64,000 nucleotides of DNA from assembly GCF_020923435.1 (NCBI RefSeq), contig NZ_CP087263.1, forward strand, positions 248,001-312,000, written 5' to 3'. The notes beneath the pieces are model-generated. The model searched no databases, was not told the DNA's origin, and saw nothing but the letters and a program-made list of their open reading frames with translations. This stretch comes from Brevibacillus humidisoli. GTDB taxonomy: Bacteria > Bacillota > Bacilli > Brevibacillales > Brevibacillaceae. Of the stretch, positions 32,784 through 41,219 are shown piece after piece (position 1 is the first letter of the stretch; every line of letters begins with the position of its first letter). The translations under genes were made by a program, and so were the position numbers.

Positions 32784-34060
32784 GTGGCAGCGTATTCCCG
32801 CTTCCAAAGCCGTCTGCAGCCGGGTTACTGGAGGGACAAACAGATGGGAAGAATTCGGTTCGGCATGTTTTTCAGCGTATTCGTTGCGATGGTTGGGTTG
32901 ATGATTATCGCCCCCGTGATGCCTCCGCTCATACGGGAATTAGGTCTGAGCGAGATGCATTCGGGGATCATCATCTCGCTTGGCTCGGTCTCCATGGCCG
33001 TCATGTCGCCGTTATGGGGCAGATGGAGTGACCGGTTCGGCAGAAGACAGATGATTCTCGCGGGCTTCGCCGGGATGTTCGTCAGCTATGCGTTCTTTAC
33101 CGCTGTCATGTACGCGGGACTTCGCGTCTGTTGAGCGGAGGCCTTCTCCTCGTTTTGCTTGTGGCTGCGAGAACGCTGGTCGGCGCGTTCATTCCCGCCG
33201 CGGTGCCTTCTTCCGCTCAGGCGTATATGGCCGACGTGACGGACGAACACGGCCGATCGGCGGGAATGGCTCTGATGGGCGCGGCCAACGGACTCGGGCT
33301 CGTGCTCGGACCGGCGATCGCGGGAGCCTTCGCGCTGATCGGTCTGATCTGGCCGCTGTATATCGGAGCGCTGTTGCCTGTCGTCGCGTTCGTGGCGGTG
33401 ATGCTCGTTGTACCGAAACGCAAGGCTGTAATCCATGAGCGTCCGCCTCGCATCAACCCATTGAAGCGGGGACTCCGCATCTATTTGCTGTCGGGTCTGG
33501 CGATCAGTCTTTGCATCGTATCCTTGCAGGTCGTCGGCGGCTTTTATTTTCAGGTCCAGTTGTTGCTCACCACGCAGGAGACTGCTCGCTTCGTTTCCTT
33601 CGGATTGATGATTTGCGGATTTTCCATGAGCGCCACGCAGGGGGTGTTGATGAAGCGGTCAAAGCTTGAGCCGCAATCGCAGATTTTGTGGGGAGCGCTG
33701 CTACTCGTTCTGAGCTTTCTGATCATGTTATTTGTTGCCAAGTTGTCCATGTATTACGTGGCTTACTTTCTGTTTGGGGTCGGTGCGGGATTGATGATGC
33801 CGGGGATCATGACGGGTGCGTCATTTGCCGTCACGTCCGAACAACAAGGCGGCATCGCCGGTCTGGTCGGCATGATTCAAGGGATAGCCGCGGTTGTGCC
33901 CCCTTTGCTGAACACCGGTTTGTATCAGATTGACAAGCATCTTCCGTACGGTTTCGCCGTTGCCTTGATGATCGCCTTGTCCTTTGCGCTGATTCGCAGG
34001 CGGGCGCTCCCGCAGAAAGCCCGGGAGGCCGCACCCGCTTTTAGCGACAACAATTCATAG
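32784..34060 (+). pseudogene. MFS exporter (siderophore-type) broken by a one-base frameshift
   Basis: Two adjacent frames together make one 12-helix MFS protein of about 425 residues. The first (32784-33134) holds helices 1-3 and the loop motif GRWSDRFGRRQMI, and stops at TGA 33132. The second continues at once from about 33128 with LLSGGLLLVLLVAARTLVGAFIPAAVPSSAQAYMADV, the helix 4-5 region, to TAA 34060. Restoring one base near 33128 joins them. No slippery heptamer is present, so decay or a base-calling error is more likely than programmed frameshifting. With the Fur box and AraC gene it looks like an iron-regulated siderophore exporter. Confidence 0.82.
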
Positions 34061-34157: not shown

Positions 34158-34208
34158 TTAATCGTTCGCCCCTTTTGAGGTAAGTAACACTGTACACTCC
34201 ACATGACT
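34158..34208 (-). other. Displaced rlmD 3' end and attachment site, outer left border (attL1)
   Basis: CACTCCACATGACT at 34195-34208 begins a short minus-strand frame reading SHVECTVLLTSKGAND before its stop. The intact rlmD gene ends HVECVILMTLKGASS. The match indicates a displaced original 3' end of rlmD, as left by integration within that gene. Confidence 0.75.
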
Positions 34209-34289
34209 TGACTACTATATTTCTATGAAATATTCCTGAAATACGTGTCGGACGTAAATAACCGCCTCTTATGGGCGGCTAGAATTTAC

Positions 34290-34829
34290 TTACCTCGTTC
34301 CTTGAGCGATTGCTTTCGTTTCATGAACTGTACCATATGGATGCTCAGGTGGGGCGTAGATAACGTAAACTTTAAGAGGGCGATTACCTGTATTGATTAC
34401 ATTGTGCCATTTTCCAGCAGGTATCATAATTGCGTAGTCGTCGTAAGCCATTACTTGAAAATCAATGCTATCACTGCTATCACCCATTTGAACAAGTGCC
34501 TGACCTTCTTCAATCCGTATGAATTGGTCAGTTGTCGGATGGACTTCTAAACCTATGTCTTCACCAACATTAATACTCATCAAGGTCACTTGAAGATATT
34601 TCCCTGTCCATAGAGCGGTGCGATAATTGTTGTTTTGCTTGGCTGCTTGGTCGATATTTACTACAAATGGCCTTGTTCCATAATCGTGTAATGGGATGTT
34701 TCCATAAGGATTATGGTAGTAGTTGTTCCGGTTGTAATAATGGGGATTCCAATCATAACCCCATTTGTTATTCCAGTAGCATTGCATTGGATTATACCAA
34801 TGATGGTGATACCATGAATTAGAATACAT
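34290..34829 (-). CDS. Cupin protein with Tyr/Asn/His-rich N terminus
   Basis: A 179-residue protein. The first 50 residues are packed with Tyr, Asn, Trp and His (SNSWYHHHWYNPMQCYWNN and more), unlike the rest; residues about 75-170 form a single cupin (GEDIGLEVHPTTDQFIRIEEGQALVQMG, then MIPAGKWHNVINTG), keeping His residues for a metal. The N-terminal composition recalls spore-coat and exosporium proteins, a guess only. ATG 34829 has AGGAG seven bases upstream. It is the only gene between attL1 and attL2. Confidence 0.75.
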   Translation of the reverse strand: MYSNSWYHHHWYNPMQCYWNNKWGYDWNPHYYNRNNYYHNPYGNIPLHDYGTRPFVVNIDQAAKQNNNYRTALWTGKYLQVTLMSINVGEDIGLEVHPTTDQFIRIEEGQALVQMGDSSDSIDFQVMAYDDYAIMIPAGKWHNVINTGNRPLKVYVIYAPPEHPYGTVHETKAIAQGTR

Positions 34830-34929
34830 AATCATGCTCCTCTCAGTGATTTTCTTCTTGACCATTTATCCTATTCAACTGCCCAGTTACAGGTAAGCAA
34901 AATGGGCAAAAGTCCACTGGTTTACAACA

Positions 34930-34960
34930 TTGAAAAAAGAGGGGTTCGCCGCCCCTCTTT
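34930..34960 (-). terminator. Terminator of the Abi_C gene
   Basis: On the minus strand AAAGAGGGG pairs with CCCCTCTTT around GCGGCGAA, followed by TTTC. Lies between the Abi_C stop and the attL2 remnant. Confidence 0.85.
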
Positions 34961-34965
34961 GCTAT

Positions 34966-35028
34966 TTACGCCAATGCATCCCCGTATTTGTCCTTTCGCA
35001 CTAACAGCGAACAGCACTCCACATGACT
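34966..35028 (-). other. Second displaced rlmD-like 3' end and attachment site (attL2)
   Basis: CACTCCACATGACT at 35015-35028, identical to attL1 over 14 bp, begins a minus-strand frame reading SHVECCSLLVRKDKYGDALA before its stop. It is another alternative C-terminus for RlmD. It divides the island into a 0.8-kb and a 4.6-kb segment. Confidence 0.72.
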
Positions 35029-35065
35029 AAAGTGTGCAATTAGAACAACCGAGATGCACTACCAA

Positions 35066-35908
35066 CTATGAGCTACTGACTTCAATGAGTCCCTTTTCCC
35101 TCTGAAATTCAAATGTTTCAAAGATAAAGTCAGCAAAGGTTTTTGCTGAATTAACTGCCAATTTTGCATGGTGTTTTGATGGTTTATATGTTATTACATG
35201 CGAATCGCTCATTTTATTCCGTATCCCAGATAAGCCAGTTACTATACTATTTAATCCGCTCAAAACTTGCTTTAGGGGCTCAGATATGTCTTTTCTTGAT
35301 GGTTCAAGGTTTAATAACTTCTGAACCCTTTTGTAAAGCTTGATTAAGTCTCCATCATATTCTGGCGCTTTGGAATCTCGCTTTTTTTCTATCTCAATCA
35401 ATACGGCTTCAACAAGTGAACGAGCATTGGTTATTGCTCCGTCATAGTCGCCTGTGAGAATTTTGTGATCACATTTCTGTATCTGCTCAACGATAAATAG
35501 CTGGTTAATCTCCACCAATTCTTGACTCCTAACCTCTAGTTCCACAATGGAGCCTTTTATTTCTTTTACTTTGTAAAAATCAATGACCTTAACCAGTTCG
35601 TACCCATCGAACTTCAAATAATTATTCAGGTGTGTAACAATTGCTTCAAGCATGTCCTCTCTGCCAATGTATTGTCTTGGATCCAGTTGTAATTCTAATA
35701 ACTGAACGAGGGAAACCGTTCCATTGATTGAACGGATATTCTGTTCTGCATAATACCATCTTGATGGAAATCCCTTTCCATATGTATCGTCAAACCCTAA
35801 TTCATTAAAAAATCGAACCAATTCTGGGCCTGACCTATAAAAAGAAATGCCGTTGTCGCCAGTAACTATCTGACCTATTGCTTGTATCGTACGCTCCGAG
35901 ACTTTCAA
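35066..35908 (-). CDS. Abortive infection family protein (Abi_C-like)
   Basis: A 280-residue soluble protein. The C-terminal half (about residues 155-265) matches the Abi_C domain: GDYDGAITNARSLVEAVLIEIEKK, then LNSIVTGLSGIRNKMSDSH and KHHAKLAVNSAKTFADFIFETF. The N-terminal half has no recognised domain. Proteins with this domain are linked to phage exclusion. ATG 35908 is five bases after the HNH stop, so the two form an operon on the mobile element. The A+T-rich composition differs from the chromosome around it. Confidence 0.8.
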   Translation of the reverse strand: MKVSERTIQAIGQIVTGDNGISFYRSGPELVRFFNELGFDDTYGKGFPSRWYYAEQNIRSINGTVSLVQLLELQLDPRQYIGREDMLEAIVTHLNNYLKFDGYELVKVIDFYKVKEIKGSIVELEVRSQELVEINQLFIVEQIQKCDHKILTGDYDGAITNARSLVEAVLIEIEKKRDSKAPEYDGDLIKLYKRVQKLLNLEPSRKDISEPLKQVLSGLNSIVTGLSGIRNKMSDSHVITYKPSKHHAKLAVNSAKTFADFIFETFEFQREKGLIEVSSS

Positions 35909-35913
35909 TCATA

Positions 35914-36552
35914 TCATCTCCTTACTTCATTCATTAATGATTGTAGTTGAGCTTTTGTTAACCAAGGTCTTTTCCTGTGAAGCATTCTATGACAATTTGA
36001 ACATACCAAAGCAATATCTTCTACTTTAGTCACATCTCCATCTTTAAGCTCAGAGATGGGAATTGTGTGATGTCCCTCAATGTAATCTTGTCCGATTTCC
36101 CCATAAACTCTATAAAAGTCGAACCCACAGACTTCACAATAGAGACGTCCGCCATGATTGGCTTTGAATCTTTCCTTTGCTATCCTGATGAGCCGCGGGT
36201 TTCTTTCTCTGTAAATATGTTGCCGTAGTTTCTTCTTGCCTTCTGCAAAGACCTCATCATCTTCAGTCAAATTAACATTGTTTTCGGATGGTTCAAAGTC
36301 CCGCAGCCCCCATTGTCCTTTCCCTTTCCCGCTTACCGAATAAAAGATATCTCTTTTTCCGTTATATACATCACAATCACTAGAATATTGATAAATAGTT
36401 CCTCTTACACGATCTTTCCAAAATGGGTTGGAGGCAAAGTCCATTATTCCTCGATCAAATATCCTAGTGTAAATATCTTCTAGTGTTCCTTCTCCCCCTA
36501 ATTCCCTAAGAGCATCAACTATTTCATCCAACCAAGGTCTTGGTTGCGGCAC
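35914..36552 (-). CDS. HNH endonuclease with N-terminal winged-helix-like domain
   Basis: A 212-residue protein. The HNH nuclease is C-terminal (about residues 135-200): CEVCGFDF, then YIEGHHTIPISEL, VEDIALVCSNCHRMLHR, giving the His-His catalytic pair, Asn-equivalent region and zinc-binding cysteines. Residues 1-85 resemble the Mrr_N/HARE-type winged helix found in restriction enzymes. Start is GTG 36552 with GGAGAGGATG upstream. Directly coupled to the Abi_C gene, it suggests a two-gene anti-phage module. Confidence 0.83.
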   Translation of the reverse strand: MPQPRPWLDEIVDALRELGGEGTLEDIYTRIFDRGIMDFASNPFWKDRVRGTIYQYSSDCDVYNGKRDIFYSVSGKGKGQWGLRDFEPSENNVNLTEDDEVFAEGKKKLRQHIYRERNPRLIRIAKERFKANHGGRLYCEVCGFDFYRVYGEIGQDYIEGHHTIPISELKDGDVTKVEDIALVCSNCHRMLHRKRPWLTKAQLQSLMNEVRR

Positions 36553-36592
36553 AAAATATCATCCTCTCCAAAACATGAACTAATACTATGGT

Positions 36593-36612
36593 AATATAAA
36601 TTCCTTTATATT
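36593..36612. promoter_or_regulatory. Perfect palindrome upstream of the HNH/Abi_C operon
   Basis: AATATAAA-TTCC-TTTATATT is an inverted repeat with 8-bp perfect arms, 40 bp before the HNH start and overlapping a possible -10 on the minus strand. It is a candidate operator. Confidence 0.5.
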
Positions 36613-36651
36613 GGAAATAGTGTGTATTGGTGCGCTTTTAATACTTAAAAA

Positions 36652-36687
36652 ATGCCTAGAAATCGCACCACGCACCGATTTCTAGGC
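36652..36687 (-). terminator. Terminator of the replication gene
   Basis: TGCCTAGAAATCG pairs perfectly with CGATTTCTAGGCA (13 pairs); on the minus strand it is followed by TTTTTTAAG. Confidence 0.93.
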
Positions 36688-36705
36688 ACAATTGGGAAAG
36701 CGAAA

Positions 36706-37656
36706 CTATGACAATTTCAAGAAACTGAGATCAAGTGGGGGTAGCTCTTTATCTGAAAAGAAAGGAGCTATCCCTGCTTTTTTCAAATCATCCATCCTTC
36801 TCGTCAATGTTGAAGTTGTATAACTCTTTCTGACAAACTCCTGTCCATATAGATCGTTCATCAAAAGAAACCCCATCAATTGCTCAGCTTTTACTACTCC
36901 ATAGGCATCTATAAGCTGTTTTGCCTGTTCAAATGTATTGGAGGTTGGCAATGCTTTGTCTACACCTATACGCTGTAAATAGGTTGCTAGTATTTGCTTG
37001 GCAACCTTCCCACACAATAGCTCCCCCGCCCATCTGTTCATGCTATATTTCTTGAGTTGGTTGCTGTTCCTGACGTTACACTCAAATCGTAACACCCCTC
37101 TGGCAGATTCAATGATCTCTTTAGAGCCTTTTCTTGCTATTAGCTCCCGTTCCTTGTCGTAAAAGCTCATTCTTATACTTTTGTTCATCCATTCCACGGT
37201 CTCTCTATCACCGTAAACTCTAGTCGTATACTTTGGGATGTGTATTTGTCCGAATACATCAATGTACTCCCTGACCGCCCCGCCCACTTGGAAATTCCAG
37301 CATACGTCCATGCGTGTCACTATCCAATACGCCGAATCATGGCGGGGGAGAAGATAGAAATTGTCCCAAAGATAATTGTTCAGCTTACGGAAGAAAATCG
37401 GTATATCACCATCCGTAATCATCGTTATGTTGTTCCCGTATAAAAACTTCGGAATGGAGACCTCAACAACTAAGCGGCGAGTATCAACAGAGTATTTAAT
37501 GTAGAGCGGCGAGTCTTTCTTTTTATACTCTCGCACTTCTCCAAGCATCCCTATATCTTCTTGATGCTCAAAAGTATAAGTGTGAGTCCATGGCAGGGAA
37601 TCTATCTTGTTGTAATCGATGTGATAGTCTCCGTACATTCTGACTGTATCAATCAT
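36706..37656 (-). CDS. Filamentous-phage/plasmid replication initiator (gene II/X family)
   Basis: A 316-residue protein matching the gpII/X replication family (Phage_CRI plus C-terminal G2P_X region). Hallmarks are the start MIDTVRMYGDYHIDY, the segment LVVEVSIPKFLYGNNITMI and TRMDVCWNFQVGG, with a Tyr/Lys-containing MSFYDKERELIARKG region before the C-terminal helices. These proteins nick the double-stranded origin and start rolling-circle replication of inoviruses and related plasmids. ATG 37656 overlaps the stop of the small gene before it (ATGA). Its presence on an integrated element implies an extrachromosomal rolling-circle stage. Confidence 0.82.
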   Translation of the reverse strand: MIDTVRMYGDYHIDYNKIDSLPWTHTYTFEHQEDIGMLGEVREYKKKDSPLYIKYSVDTRRLVVEVSIPKFLYGNNITMITDGDIPIFFRKLNNYLWDNFYLLPRHDSAYWIVTRMDVCWNFQVGGAVREYIDVFGQIHIPKYTTRVYGDRETVEWMNKSIRMSFYDKERELIARKGSKEIIESARGVLRFECNVRNSNQLKKYSMNRWAGELLCGKVAKQILATYLQRIGVDKALPTSNTFEQAKQLIDAYGVVKAEQLMGFLLMNDLYGQEFVRKSYTTSTLTRRMDDLKKAGIAPFFSDKELPPLDLSFLKLS

Positions 37657-37835
37657 GGCTCATCAGTTGCTGTATTCAAATTTGGTGTAGTTGTTGATGG
37701 TGTTACAGTATTCTCTTTCTCCCCGCCGCCAGAGTCGTTTTTCCTCTTCTCTATATTCCAGTAGGATAGGATAGCCGATTCCATCAAATCCTGTATGCTT
37801 CCAGTGTCACTAAACACTCTCGTTACTTGACTCAT
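37653..37835 (-). CDS. Small hypothetical protein upstream of the replication gene, 60 aa
   Basis: ATG 37835 lies behind GGAGGAGGAAG and encodes 60 residues: an N-terminal helix (GSIQDLMESAILSYWNIEKRKN) and a Ser/Thr/Asn/Pro-rich tail. Its TGA overlaps the ATG of the replication gene, so the two are coupled. No family recognised; small accessory proteins in this position are usual in rolling-circle elements. Confidence 0.72.
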   Translation of the reverse strand: MSQVTRVFSDTGSIQDLMESAILSYWNIEKRKNDSGGGEKENTVTPSTTTPNLNTATDEP

Positions 37836-37938
37836 CACTCTTCCTCCTCCATTCCGCACCAAAGTTAGTAAAAAATTTCCTATTGGTAACGCAACGTCCC
37901 CGCTCCTAATGGCTTGGCAGTGCTAAATGCTAGACACT

Positions 37939-37947
37939 GGGGGGGGG
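37939..37947 (+). repeat. Nine-G homopolymer tract
   Basis: Nine consecutive G at 37939-37947 in the 240-bp divergent region between the small replication operon and the recombinase gene. Such tracts can change length by slippage. The same region should hold promoters for both sides and possibly an origin. Confidence 0.8.
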
Positions 37948-38003
37948 TGCTTGTACGGAAAATCAAAAAATATTTTCGTTTTCTCTATACGACTTCCAGA
38001 TCG

Positions 38004-38036
38004 GGGAGTTAAGTGCTACAATCCCTTAACAGTTGG
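38004..38036 (+). promoter_or_regulatory. Likely recombinase promoter
   Basis: An extended -10, TGCTACAAT (about 38012-38020), lies 55 bp before the recombinase start; the matching -35 is poor. Position is approximate. Confidence 0.35.
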
Positions 38037-38075
38037 TAGTGCGTCTCGTATAGATCGAAGCAGGAGGAGATTTAT

Positions 38076-39614
38076 ATGAGATGTGCGGTTTATGCCCGAG
38101 TAAGTACAGGTTTGGATAGTCAAAAAGACAGTTTGGAAAATCAGGTATCGTTCTTTGAAAACTTCATAAAGGAAAAAGGATGGGAACTCGTTCAAATTTA
38201 TGCCGATGAGGGTAAAAGCGGAACAAGTATCGTGAAAAGGGAGCAACTCCAAAAGCTCATGAAGGATGCTGAGCGGGGAGAGTTTGACGTTGTTCTGATT
38301 AAATCAATTTCTCGTTGGGCTAGGGATACCGTTGACTCTCTGACCCTTGTCAGGAAGCTAAAGAGTCTTGGAGTAACTGTAATATCGGCAAAAGACGGTT
38401 ACAATTCGTCTGAGGATGATGGTGAACTGAGGTTAACTATCTTCTCTATGCTGGCACAAAGCCAGAGTGAAGATATTTCAACGAATGTTAGCTTTGGCAT
38501 TGCCGAGAAGTCACGGAAAGGGGTGTTTCACGGTACCCCGCCTTATGGTTACGACAAGATTAGGGGAAAGCTCGTTCCTAACCCAATACATGCTCCTACT
38601 GTGAAGCTGATATTCCGTCTGTATCTCGTGGAAGGATGGGGGATGCAAAAGATTGCCAACTATCTAAACGCTCACAACATCCCCACCCCCCGCTCCGTAT
38701 TGGGTGCGAAAAATGCAGGAGACAAATGGCATGATACGGCGGTAAAGATCATCTTGAAGAACCCTAATTACACGGGAGACCTTGTTCAAGGGCGGTCGAA
38801 GGTAGACTTCAAGGACAAGGTATACAACCAACAGAGAGGGTATAAGAAGCGGATTGAGATTGAGGAAAATAAATGGATAATTGTTCCCAATGCCCATGAA
38901 GCTCTTATAACCAAAGAAGAATTTGAAGCCGTCCAAGAGAAGATTAACAAAAAAGCGGAGAAAGTATTTAGAGGTCGTGGAAACAAGTCACTCTTTGCCC
39001 GCCTTGCTTTCTGCCCAGATTGCGGTGCGGGGTTAAACTATATGCATGACAGAAAAGGTTATATCTGTGCAACGTACAAGAAGAACGGAAGCAGGAAGTG
39101 TACGAAGCATTACATCAAGCATGAGCTGCTAAAAGAGAAAGTACTTACGGATATTCGAGAGCTTGCGTCCAACTCCCTCAATATGAAGTCACTTGTACAG
39201 CTTGCACTAAAAAGGGCAGGGAATAAAATGGCTAGCGCAACAGAGGAACTTCAACGAATCCTACGGGAGCTTGAGTCGGTTAGACGGGAGAAGAACGAGT
39301 TATTGCGACTCCTCACCCGCCAAGTTATCGACCAGGCGACATATGAAGATCAATTCCAGTTCATTGATAAAGACTACAAGTCATTACTCCAAAGAAAAAT
39401 GGAACTGGAAGAACTGCTCTCCAAGGAAAAAGACACCGAGACGAGTCTCAGTGCCTTTCAGAGGGAAATACAACAATTTGCCCAGTTGGAGCTTCCTGAT
39501 GAAGAAACACTCCGACAAGTGCTGCACAAGCTTATAGACAAGGTACTCGTCTATGAAGATGGACGCATTGAAATTCATTACAACTTCAAGAATCCGATGT
39601 TGAAGGGGGCTTAA
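38076..39614 (+). CDS. Large serine recombinase/integrase
   Basis: A 512-residue large serine recombinase. The N-terminal resolvase domain (about 1-140) begins RCAVYARVSTGLDSQKDS with the catalytic serine in YARVST, and has the ISRWARD arginines. The recombinase domain follows (about 160-275, GTPPYGYD). Then a zinc-ribbon (CPDCG ... C, about 310-345) and a coiled-coil (about 385-460), which control directionality in this family. ATG 38076 follows AGGAGGAG. Its stop overlaps the rlmD stop by a few bases, so it sits at the right edge of the island and most likely catalysed insertion into rlmD. Confidence 0.93.
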   Translation: MRCAVYARVSTGLDSQKDSLENQVSFFENFIKEKGWELVQIYADEGKSGTSIVKREQLQKLMKDAERGEFDVVLIKSISRWARDTVDSLTLVRKLKSLGVTVISAKDGYNSSEDDGELRLTIFSMLAQSQSEDISTNVSFGIAEKSRKGVFHGTPPYGYDKIRGKLVPNPIHAPTVKLIFRLYLVEGWGMQKIANYLNAHNIPTPRSVLGAKNAGDKWHDTAVKIILKNPNYTGDLVQGRSKVDFKDKVYNQQRGYKKRIEIEENKWIIVPNAHEALITKEEFEAVQEKINKKAEKVFRGRGNKSLFARLAFCPDCGAGLNYMHDRKGYICATYKKNGSRKCTKHYIKHELLKEKVLTDIRELASNSLNMKSLVQLALKRAGNKMASATEELQRILRELESVRREKNELLRLLTRQVIDQATYEDQFQFIDKDYKSLLQRKMELEELLSKEKDTETSLSAFQREIQQFAQLELPDEETLRQVLHKLIDKVLVYEDGRIEIHYNFKNPMLKGA

Positions 39615-41005
39615 CTCGAAGCTCCCTTTAATGTCATCAATATTACACACTCTACATGTGCCGTATGCGGAAACATGTCAATCGGCTGCACGTTGCGCAA
39701 ATCGTAGGCAGCGAGCAGGCGGCCCACATCTTTGCCTAATGTGGAAGGGTTGCATGAGACATAGACGATCCGCTCTGGACGGACAGCGAGCAAGGTATCG
39801 ATCAAGGCGGCGTCGAGGCCGGTTCGCGGCGGATCGACGACGACCAGATCAGGTTTGAGTCCCTGTTTCGCCCATTTGGGCATCAACACCTCTGCCTTTC
39901 CAGTGTGGAAGCTGATATTCGCGATATTGTTTTGCTCAGCGTTCTTCCGCGCATCCTCCACTGCTTCTGGAATGATTTCGATTCCGCGTACCTCTTTGGC
40001 AAAAGGCGCCAGCCAGAGTCCGATCGTGCCGGTGCCGCAGTAGAGATCAAAGACCAACTCGCGCCCGGTTAGCTGGGCAGCTTTCTTCACTTCGTCATAA
40101 AGCTTGATGGTTTGTGACGGATTTAACTGAAAAAAGGCCCGGGCAGACAGGTCAAACGAGAGGGTTCCCAGTTTCTCCACAATGGAAGGCTTGCCCCACA
40201 GTGTATTTGTCGTGCTGCCAAATACGAGCGATGTCTTTTGAGGATTGACGTTCTGTACGATGCTGACCAGCGAAGGGATCTGATAACGCAGCTCCAGAAT
40301 CAGTTCTTTGACGCGAGGGATCGCGGGTACGGCGGTGACCAGTGTAAGCTGCGCTTCACCGGTGGCAAAGGCCACTCTGGCTACGATGGTACGAACGACG
40401 CCGCTCCTCTTCCGTTCATCATAGGCGGGGATCTGCAGCTTCTCCATGATCTCACGCGCCTTGGCAACGATGCGGTTGGTCTCTTGGTGCTGGATCGGGC
40501 AGTCCGAGAGGTTGACCAATTCGTGACTGCCTGGTTTATAGAGGCCGGCGATCAGCTTGCCGCTTTTTTGTCCGACTTGAAACTGCGCTTTGTTGCGGTA
40601 ATCCCACGGGTGTTCCATCCCAATCGTCTCAGCGACAGGCGGATGCTCTAAACCAGCGTATTTGCGCAGGGACTCCTCGACAAGCGCTTGTTTGCTCACC
40701 AACTGTGCCTGGTAATCGAGATGCTGCAGACTGCAGCCGCCGCATTCGTGGTAGAGCGGGCAGGGTGGCTCGATCCGCTCAGGTGACTGCTCCAGCACTT
40801 TCAGCAGTCGGGCAGCCGCGTACTTTCTTTCTGACCTTGTCACCTCGGCTCGCACCACTTCCCCCGGGAGGGCTCCGTCGACGAAGACGATCTTTCGCTT
40901 GTAGTACCCGATCCCTTCGCCGTTGATTCCAAGGTTTTTTATCGTTAGCGTCAGTTGTTGGCCGACACCGATGTTCACATCATGTTGCTTCCGGGATTGT
41001 TTCAT
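39611..41005 (-). CDS. rlmD: 23S rRNA (uracil-C5)-methyltransferase RlmD/RumA family
   Basis: A 464-residue SAM-dependent rRNA methyltransferase. N-terminal TRAM domain (about 10-65), an iron-sulfur cysteine set (CPLYHECGGCSLQHLDY), central domain and a C-terminal Rossmann domain with FDLYCGTGTIGLWLA, DPPRTGLD and the catalytic cysteine in VYVSCNPSTLGKD. It methylates uridine in 23S rRNA. ATG 41005 follows GAGGTGGTGCAGCGT. The last 15 codons (from HVEC on) appear to be supplied by the integrated element, since displaced alternative ends occur at 34.2 and 35.0 kb. Confidence 0.93.
   Translation of the reverse strand: MKQSRKQHDVNIGVGQQLTLTIKNLGINGEGIGYYKRKIVFVDGALPGEVVRAEVTRSERKYAAARLLKVLEQSPERIEPPCPLYHECGGCSLQHLDYQAQLVSKQALVEESLRKYAGLEHPPVAETIGMEHPWDYRNKAQFQVGQKSGKLIAGLYKPGSHELVNLSDCPIQHQETNRIVAKAREIMEKLQIPAYDERKRSGVVRTIVARVAFATGEAQLTLVTAVPAIPRVKELILELRYQIPSLVSIVQNVNPQKTSLVFGSTTNTLWGKPSIVEKLGTLSFDLSARAFFQLNPSQTIKLYDEVKKAAQLTGRELVFDLYCGTGTIGLWLAPFAKEVRGIEIIPEAVEDARKNAEQNNIANISFHTGKAEVLMPKWAKQGLKPDLVVVDPPRTGLDAALIDTLLAVRPERIVYVSCNPSTLGKDVGRLLAAYDLRNVQPIDMFPHTAHVECVILMTLKGASS
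39648..39658 (-). other. Right attachment site in rlmD (attR)
   Basis: CACTCTACATG matches the attL cores CACTCCACATG at 10 of 11 positions and lies in the rlmD codons for HVEC. Similarity to the left sites ends soon on both sides, as expected for an att core. Confidence 0.68.
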
Positions 41006-41219
41006 ACGCTGCACCACCTCAAGGCATGATCCCGTTTATTATACCGCTTCCCGGGAGAATTCTCATCCAATGGCGTGTTGCTCAATCATGCATCATCAGC
41101 TCACAGCCACTCCATGCTGAATCGTCGAAGGCAGCAATTGCATATACAGGACAATCTTCCTCCCTCGACCCCTTTTTGTTATAATGGGGCAGAGAAATAT
41201 GAGGGAGTTGTGACAGAGG

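Follow-up and report, generated by a model that had tools for sequence, protein, structure and literature searches.

The 3′ end of rlmD in Brevibacillus humidisoli as a probable attachment site for stacked site-specific elements

Three rlmD-type gene ends in one island

The window analyzed here, a stretch of 64,000 nt (G000:C1:248001-312000) from the 4.9-Mb genome of Brevibacillus humidisoli, carries rlmD, the gene for a 23S rRNA m5U methyltransferase, and downstream of it an island in which the end of that gene recurs twice. The body of this rlmD, which is 79-81% identical to its same-genus orthologues, is that of the host, and its final codons are element-supplied. We propose, with a probability of about 0.9, that the rlmD 3′ end serves several families of site-specific elements, unrelated to one another, as an attachment site (attB), and that the island reflects stacked insertions accompanied by exchange of the gene's tail. 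The features on which this reading is built are listed below in window coordinates.

39611..41017, minus strand: rlmD, the target gene (TIGR00479, 520.9 bits against a cut-off of 183.55)
39611..39658, minus strand: current rlmD 3′ end, tail type T1, reading HVECVILMTLKGASS and stop; inner junction core at 39648-39658
34966..35025, minus strand: displaced rlmD tail, type T4, reading HVECCSLLVRKDKYGDALA and stop; terminator-like hairpin after it at about 34932-34959
34158..34205, minus strand: outermost displaced rlmD tail, type T2, reading HVECTVLLTSKGAND and stop; core at 34195-34205

Three copies of the core motif CACTCYACATG are present in the window (at 34195, 35015 and 39648), always on the plus strand, against an expectation of 0.05, and none of 100 shuffles reached that number. 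The plus-strand core corresponds to the minus strand in the sense of rlmD, and when read on that strand all three copies encode H-V-E-C, after which a short end resembling that of rlmD runs to a stop codon. The copies at 34.2 and 35.0 kb have 14 identical nucleotides in common (CACTCCACATGACT), and the spacing between cores delimits units of 4,633 bp and 820 bp. An earlier note on this DNA had claimed two stacked integrations at the rlmD 3′ end with displaced gene ends, the same core at each remnant, a serine recombinase at the right edge, and a division of the island into 4.6-kb and 0.8-kb pieces. These claims are borne out by the three cores, each of which precedes an rlmD-type tail, by their excess over expectation, by the Resolvase, Recombinase and Zn_ribbon_recom domains encoded at 38076-39614, and by the sizes of the two units. 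A search for a relative that carries the remnants without an insertion found none, and the transporter gene of the major facilitator superfamily (MFS) to the left of the island is not beside rlmD in the relatives tested.

Relatives of the 4.6-kb unit and reconstruction of its attachment site

The 4,633-bp segment (35,025-39,658) contains five genes, one of which encodes the large serine recombinase (LSR) designated LSR-A. Relatives found via LSR-A occur in B. parabrevis NRRL NRS 605, Brevibacillus sp. SYP-B805, and one Brevibacillus metagenome-assembled genome. At a point 9.4 kb into the rlmD locus of B. parabrevis (G047, contig NZ_RHHV01000019), there is a displaced tail that reads HVECVILMTLKGASS, identical to the current rlmD end of the window, and 3,059 bp comprising tail, integrase and initiator match the window at 87.5%. 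This homology begins at the core, 7 bp upstream of CATGT, a flank that the two share; the cargo differs from that of the window, and the final 54 bp before the outer core are again 98% identical. The copy itself is buried under a tyrosine-recombinase element, and as a near-copy with homology from the core it lends independent support to the earlier note. Because the backbone and ends match and the cargo differs, the former are conserved and the latter exchanged, as expected of a living element family. By this comparison, the 4.6-kb unit is a real mobile element, and it may be active at present. Integrases approximately 65% identical to LSR-A also lie behind a second rlmD paralogue (rlmD2) in G001 and G007, where the G007 cargo includes a TIR-domain gene, and the T1 tail occurs both on rlmD2 of other species and on the B. 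parabrevis element.

A survey of 79 rlmD loci, each examined for up to 18 kb downstream, revealed 40 displaced tails in the sense orientation and 2 in antisense, with about 1 in mononucleotide shuffles. Among the 71 loci that belong to the family Brevibacillaceae, one or more displaced tails occur at 27, and 45 show either a tail or a recombinase within 9 kb, with both paralogues affected (19/33 for rlmD1 and 26/38 for rlmD2); the deepest stack holds four displaced tails (G050). Sixteen serine recombinase genes lie 30-75 nt behind a tail, all 16 of them convergent on it, and tyrosine-recombinase elements occupy the same place with tails such as SVTLLTLK. No recombinase is present in 26 of 39 units. 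The window rlmD1 and the rlmD2 genes of G001 and G007 are 65-70% identical over the 60 nt before the core and 81-86% identical over the 36 nt from the core; judged by such similarities, the tails ignore gene ancestry.

The attachment site of each element (attP) was rebuilt by joining the outer arm of a unit to its inner tail, and complementary positions were counted around the dinucleotide CA of the His codon, for which the null value is 7.3 of 20 (standard deviation 2.6). The mean dyad of units with an LSR behind the tail is 11.7, that of units without a recombinase is 7.1 (LSR versus none, p=0.005), and that of tyrosine-recombinase units is 5.5. Five LSR units other than that of the window score 10 to 16, and the sites of another family, LSR-C, score 17 and 14 of 20.

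Several points weigh against attB function and stacked insertion at rlmD as proposed here. The attP dyad of the window's own LSR-A element is just suggestive (12/20, p=0.07), one LSR unit (a decayed one in G003) has a dyad of 4, and the crossover base is placed from the rebuilt sites. Tails that are alike in DNA tend to go with integrases that are alike (r=0.45, p=0.0002 in a matrix permutation), but this p-value is optimistic because related elements are counted. The tail at 34.2 kb could be a native end that resembles the tails of a further family, LSR-B. Finally, an empty site could not be seen directly, the comparison having included no island-free strain of this species.

The second rlmD paralogue of the same genome (G000:C1:101713-104150; L067, L001) has a stack of its own. 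The gene bears a T4 tail (HVECCSLLVRKDQ and stop), and a displaced T4-like tail (RHVECRSLLVRKDNQMEMY and stop) lies 957 bp downstream, behind a tetratricopeptide repeat (TPR) gene, with whose open reading frame (ORF) it forms an in-frame fusion in this 957-bp unit. Tandem pairs of full-length serine recombinase genes of one family were observed at the rlmD2 locus of G048 (L126, 4514-8093) and in G208 (L212). Core matches also occur elsewhere in the B. humidisoli genome, and three of them were considered as candidates for further insertions. The match at C1:2022914 is probably due to chance. At C1:3703236 (approximately position 6737 of L087, G000:C1:3696500-3710500), a T1-like reading away from rlmD (THVECLILMVRKK and stop) adjoins a degraded restriction-like gene and insertion-sequence genes. 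The match at C1:4251077 lies downstream of an rlmH (7164-7643 in L088, G000:C1:4244000-4258000), just beyond which is an island with two DNA cytosine methyltransferase-like genes; in staphylococci, rlmH is the target of staphylococcal cassette chromosome (SCC) elements.

Contents and origins of the units

The remaining features of the two units are as follows.

38076..39614, plus strand: large serine recombinase (integrase) LSR-A, 512 aa; Resolvase 3e-35, Recombinase 3e-27, Zn_ribbon_recom 5e-9; PHROG 95 integrase 1e-130
38031..38048, plus strand: 18-bp repeat, copy 1, in front of the integrase gene, flanked by TTAACA (-35-like) and TATAGA (-10-like)
37653..37862, minus strand: small ORF, 69 aa, overlapping the gene for the replication initiator (Rep)
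36706..37656, minus strand: putative G2P (gene II)-type rolling-circle replication initiator; PHROG 702 replication protein 2.5e-14
35914..36552, minus strand: HNH endonuclease gene (cargo); Pfam HNH 3e-9; PADLOC mREase_IV 1.8e-6, HNH part only
35066..35908, minus strand: AbiJ-like abortive-infection gene (cargo); Pfam Abi_C 1.9e-21; PADLOC AbiJ 4.5e-29, residues 83-266
35050..35067, minus strand: 18-bp repeat, copy 2, at the outer end of the LSR-A element; inverted match to copy 1, 17/18
35015..35025, plus strand: outer junction core of the LSR-A element; outer attP half at 35026-35045
34290..34865, minus strand: cupin gene, the sole gene of the 820-bp unit; Cupin_2 5e-11; PHROG 13536 6e-86

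The five genes of the 4.6-kb element are thus those for the serine recombinase, the putative replication initiator, the HNH protein and the AbiJ-like protein, together with the 69-aa ORF; no conjugation module or phage genes are among them. The LSR-A and rlmD ORFs are convergent, with a 4-nt overlap in which their stop codons overlap. Phage_CRI of Pfam is matched by 6 of 8 aligned initiator homologues (best 7e-10), the window protein alone falling below the limit, and comparison of the window Rep with phage, plasmid, PDB and viral-contig collections gave no useful match; the 69-aa ORF is without a match in Pfam, NCBIfam, PHROG and PADLOC. The earlier note had credited the element with replication, recombination and defense genes, a description with which the profile matches (G2P-type, LSR and AbiJ-like) agree, and the roles in replication and defense derived from these matches are putative. 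Both copies of the 18-bp repeat are kept in B. parabrevis, and a site for a shared regulator might be guessed at. Upstream of the integrase gene, the DNA fold is no better than that of shuffles (z=0.21) and gives no indication of a structured origin, and an Rfam search returned no match. To the left of the island, the MFS transporter gene (32784-34060) occupies two overlapping frames, 32784-33134 and 33131-34060, a split that looks like a frameshift near 33,130.

The 820-bp unit has att-like cores on both sides (34195, 35015) and no recombinase. Its cupin gene is 80.5% identical in DNA to one on a Cohnella plasmid and has homologues on other Bacillota plasmids, and is therefore transferable cargo. 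The dyad of the unit is 7/20, against the null mean of 7.3, and its outer arm scores at most 10 with every tail in the set. The T4 tail at its inner end is part of a module of approximately 90 bp (tail, GGAGATGTATTGGCG, terminator-like hairpin) that is conserved across genera and is also present at rlmD in other Bacilli families. In G208, which has T4 on rlmD, two LSR-C genes follow at a distance of 11 to 16 kb, and the outer of these stops 39 nt short of a displaced core; in G102, LSR-C ends just before a core on one contig and T4 is on rlmD on another; and in G101 the order is T4 on rlmD, a DNA methyltransferase, a related initiator and LSR-C. These layouts imply that LSR-C elements have their cargo side facing rlmD and the integrase outermost, the reverse of LSR-A. 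On such arrangements, the autonomous parent of T4 is a third integrase family, LSR-C, and the 35.0-kb tail is the inner end of an element of this family. The earlier note's 0.8-kb relic stands as both cupin-bearing and a relic, and can now be refined: it reads as the leftover of an LSR-C-type element whose integrase side was lost and which now lies between scars, and, given its dyad, it appears to be a hybrid whose two ends differ in origin, not an intact small element.

We also considered T4 as the native rlmD tail of the bacterial family, which is ruled out by its presence on both paralogues, twice in the G018 stack, and in other families. Far from rlmD, T4-like tails were observed at G018:C1:2797855, G020:C1:4148212, G053:C31:21363 and G043:C1:4149866. 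The upstream gene is the same in G018, G020 and G053, and the G043 copy follows an Xer-like recombinase gene; this gene was rejected as the T4 recombinase, the other sites being without a close relative of it.

The tail at 34.2 kb is of type T2, which as a rule adjoins an LSR-B integrase; it is close to those of G005 and G010, which lie beside LSRs of 541 and 517 aa, and matches the tail beside the LSR-B integrase of G005 at 41/48 nt (85%). It is likely to be of LSR-B type and element-borne, in which case the stack would probably record at least three element families; both integrations of the earlier note are retained, and their number is revised upward. Could this tail instead be the native rlmD1 end of the lineage, such that just two integrations are recorded? 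On its left side the next gene is the ordinary MFS transporter, with no LSR-B integrase or other element still present, as a native end would allow. The resemblance to the G005 tail argues otherwise, however, as do the same-genus orthologues in G001 and G002, which have a different end (SVALLTLK, AIASLERKTGGR), and we consider a native origin somewhat unlikely.

The single-gene T4 units (cupin here, TPR at rlmD2, a kinase gene in G007 and G058) invite a further alternative, in which they are non-autonomous cassettes moved in trans by the serine integrases of resident elements and the rlmD 3′ end in Brevibacillaceae is an integron-like cassette array. Units without a recombinase are indeed common, the cupin gene occurs on plasmids too, and T4 with the kinase gene is 81.6% identical over 717 bp from the core in G007 and G058, members of two families, without an adjoining recombinase. 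This homology covers only the inner 717 bp, however, and stops before the outer junction, so the whole unit was not moved intact. Moreover, in units without a recombinase, outer arm and inner tail as a rule form no attP dyad (mean 7.1, as given above), and the outer arms often pair better with the tails of other families. T4 has an autonomous parent with its integrase at the far end, and the hallmarks of integron cassettes are missing, there being neither attC-like folding nor IntI. The dyad test and the LSR-C parent weaken the cassette idea to the point that we regard both of its parts, movement in trans and a cassette array, as improbable. Less probable still is that homologous recombination, or a duplication of the 3′ end of rlmD, gave rise to the displaced tails. 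Certain tyrosine-type units (G018, G053) do have long direct repeats over the whole tail, as duplication would give, but beyond the core the three tails of the window are unlike one another and match those borne by other elements and by the other paralogue, the integrase gene adjoins its tail at a constant distance, and the B. parabrevis homology starts at the core. Site-specific integration at rlmD with exchange of tails is thus the reading that we prefer.

Proposed exchange and relation to known systems

In the mechanism we envisage, a large serine integrase would recombine the codons H-V-E-C of rlmD with an attP that adjoins the integrase gene. The rebuilt attP sites suggest that the exchange might take place at the dinucleotide CA of the His codon, and the attP junction of the excised LSR-A element would then read ..GCACACTTTAGT-CA-TGTRGAGTGTGTAAT.. 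across the crossover. The host would retain rlmD up to CA, the element would provide the V-E codons together with a new in-frame tail, and the previous tail would be displaced to the element's far end. The site restored in this manner could be reused by a later element, and tails would pile up outward as scars. The newest visible arrival would be the LSR-A element (35025-39658), with its exchangeable, defense-like cargo. Outside it would lie the 820-bp recombinase-less remnant, comprising an LSR-C-family inner end, the cupin gene and an outer junction, and the last scar, at 34.2 kb, would be an LSR-B-type tail from a still earlier element, an order of insertion events that we infer.

The CA lies in the codon two before the glutamate of HVE, which is the catalytic general base in the RumA/RlmCD family. 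Alignment of rlmD with PDB 5xj1 and 5xj2 (RlmCD SP_1029) shows that those two structures differ exactly at this residue (E to Q). If the exchange does take place at CA, the catalytic Glu codon comes with every element, which has to preserve the reading frame, and the enzyme would thus remain active after insertion; the return of this codon by each serine-integrase element would explain how a conserved active site can be occupied without enzyme loss. The displaced tails serve as labelled scars that delimit elements and from which the likely order of insertion can be read, and they offer a simple handle for predicting the attB/attP pairs of new serine integrases whose target is conserved. Given a cargo that includes abortive-infection, TIR and restriction-like genes, the hotspot may also be a practical place to seek defense genes.

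The closest known counterparts are found in streptococci, where serine-integrase integrative and conjugative elements (ICEs) in rumA exchange 3′ ends and have their att site inside the integrase gene (PMC4701971), and where the rum 3′ end has been called an integration hotspot (PMC4288039). The attB of Phi-m46.1, experimentally defined in S. agalactiae as the 18-bp sequence ACATCATGTGGAGTGTGT (PMC4288039), comprises the same codons as the window core at 39648-39658. The rum/rumA elements thus share with those described here the target gene (rum/rumA being rlmD), its codons (CATGTGGAGTG), the 3′-end exchange, the hotspot character, and a single serine integrase with the same three domains, to which, in the rum phages, the window integrase is approximately 31.5% identical. 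Unlike them, the window element is approximately 4.6 kb long, has a G2P-type initiator, and lacks conjugation and phage genes; its att core (39648) is external to the integrase gene, 33 nt from the stop (39614), whereas in streptococci the att site is internal and the integrase end is exchanged too. Our findings extend this hotspot to Brevibacillaceae and to both rlmD paralogues, with several unrelated recombinase families converging on the same codons.

Small integrative and mobilizable elements that combine an integrase with a rolling-circle-type initiator (PMC5357655) are similar in layout, but here the initiator is of the G2P/Phage_CRI type, and mobilization by a conjugative helper would be putative. 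Accretion and cis-mobilizable elements (CIMEs) have been described for ICESt1-type islands (Pavlovic 2004 and Bellanger 2011, as cited in PMC5357655), and, as summarized there, they likewise involve successive elements at one site and recombinase-less remnants between att-like sites. In contrast to CIMEs so described, each step here swaps the 3′ end of a protein gene, such that displaced tails identify the family, and the two ends of the cupin remnant seem to come from different families. Integron cassettes differ in that serine recombinases are found at the LSR units and that the conserved part of T4 consists of an LSR-C half-site and a terminator. SCC elements at the rlmH 3′ end employ serine recombinases, target an rRNA methyltransferase gene, and form composite stacks with recombinase-less pseudo-elements. 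The island resembles them in each of these respects, and is set apart by its other target gene, by the change of the target's tail, and by a recombinase that scores 147.2 bits against a CcrB cut-off of 900.

A single search of the open-access literature found no paper on such elements in Brevibacillus. Serine-integrase insertion at the rum/rumA codons with 3′-end exchange is already known, as is tandem accretion. New here are the small elements that join an integrase to a G2P-type initiator, the use in Brevibacillaceae of both rlmD paralogues, the convergence on one site of tyrosine elements and no fewer than four serine families, and the tails as labels of element families.

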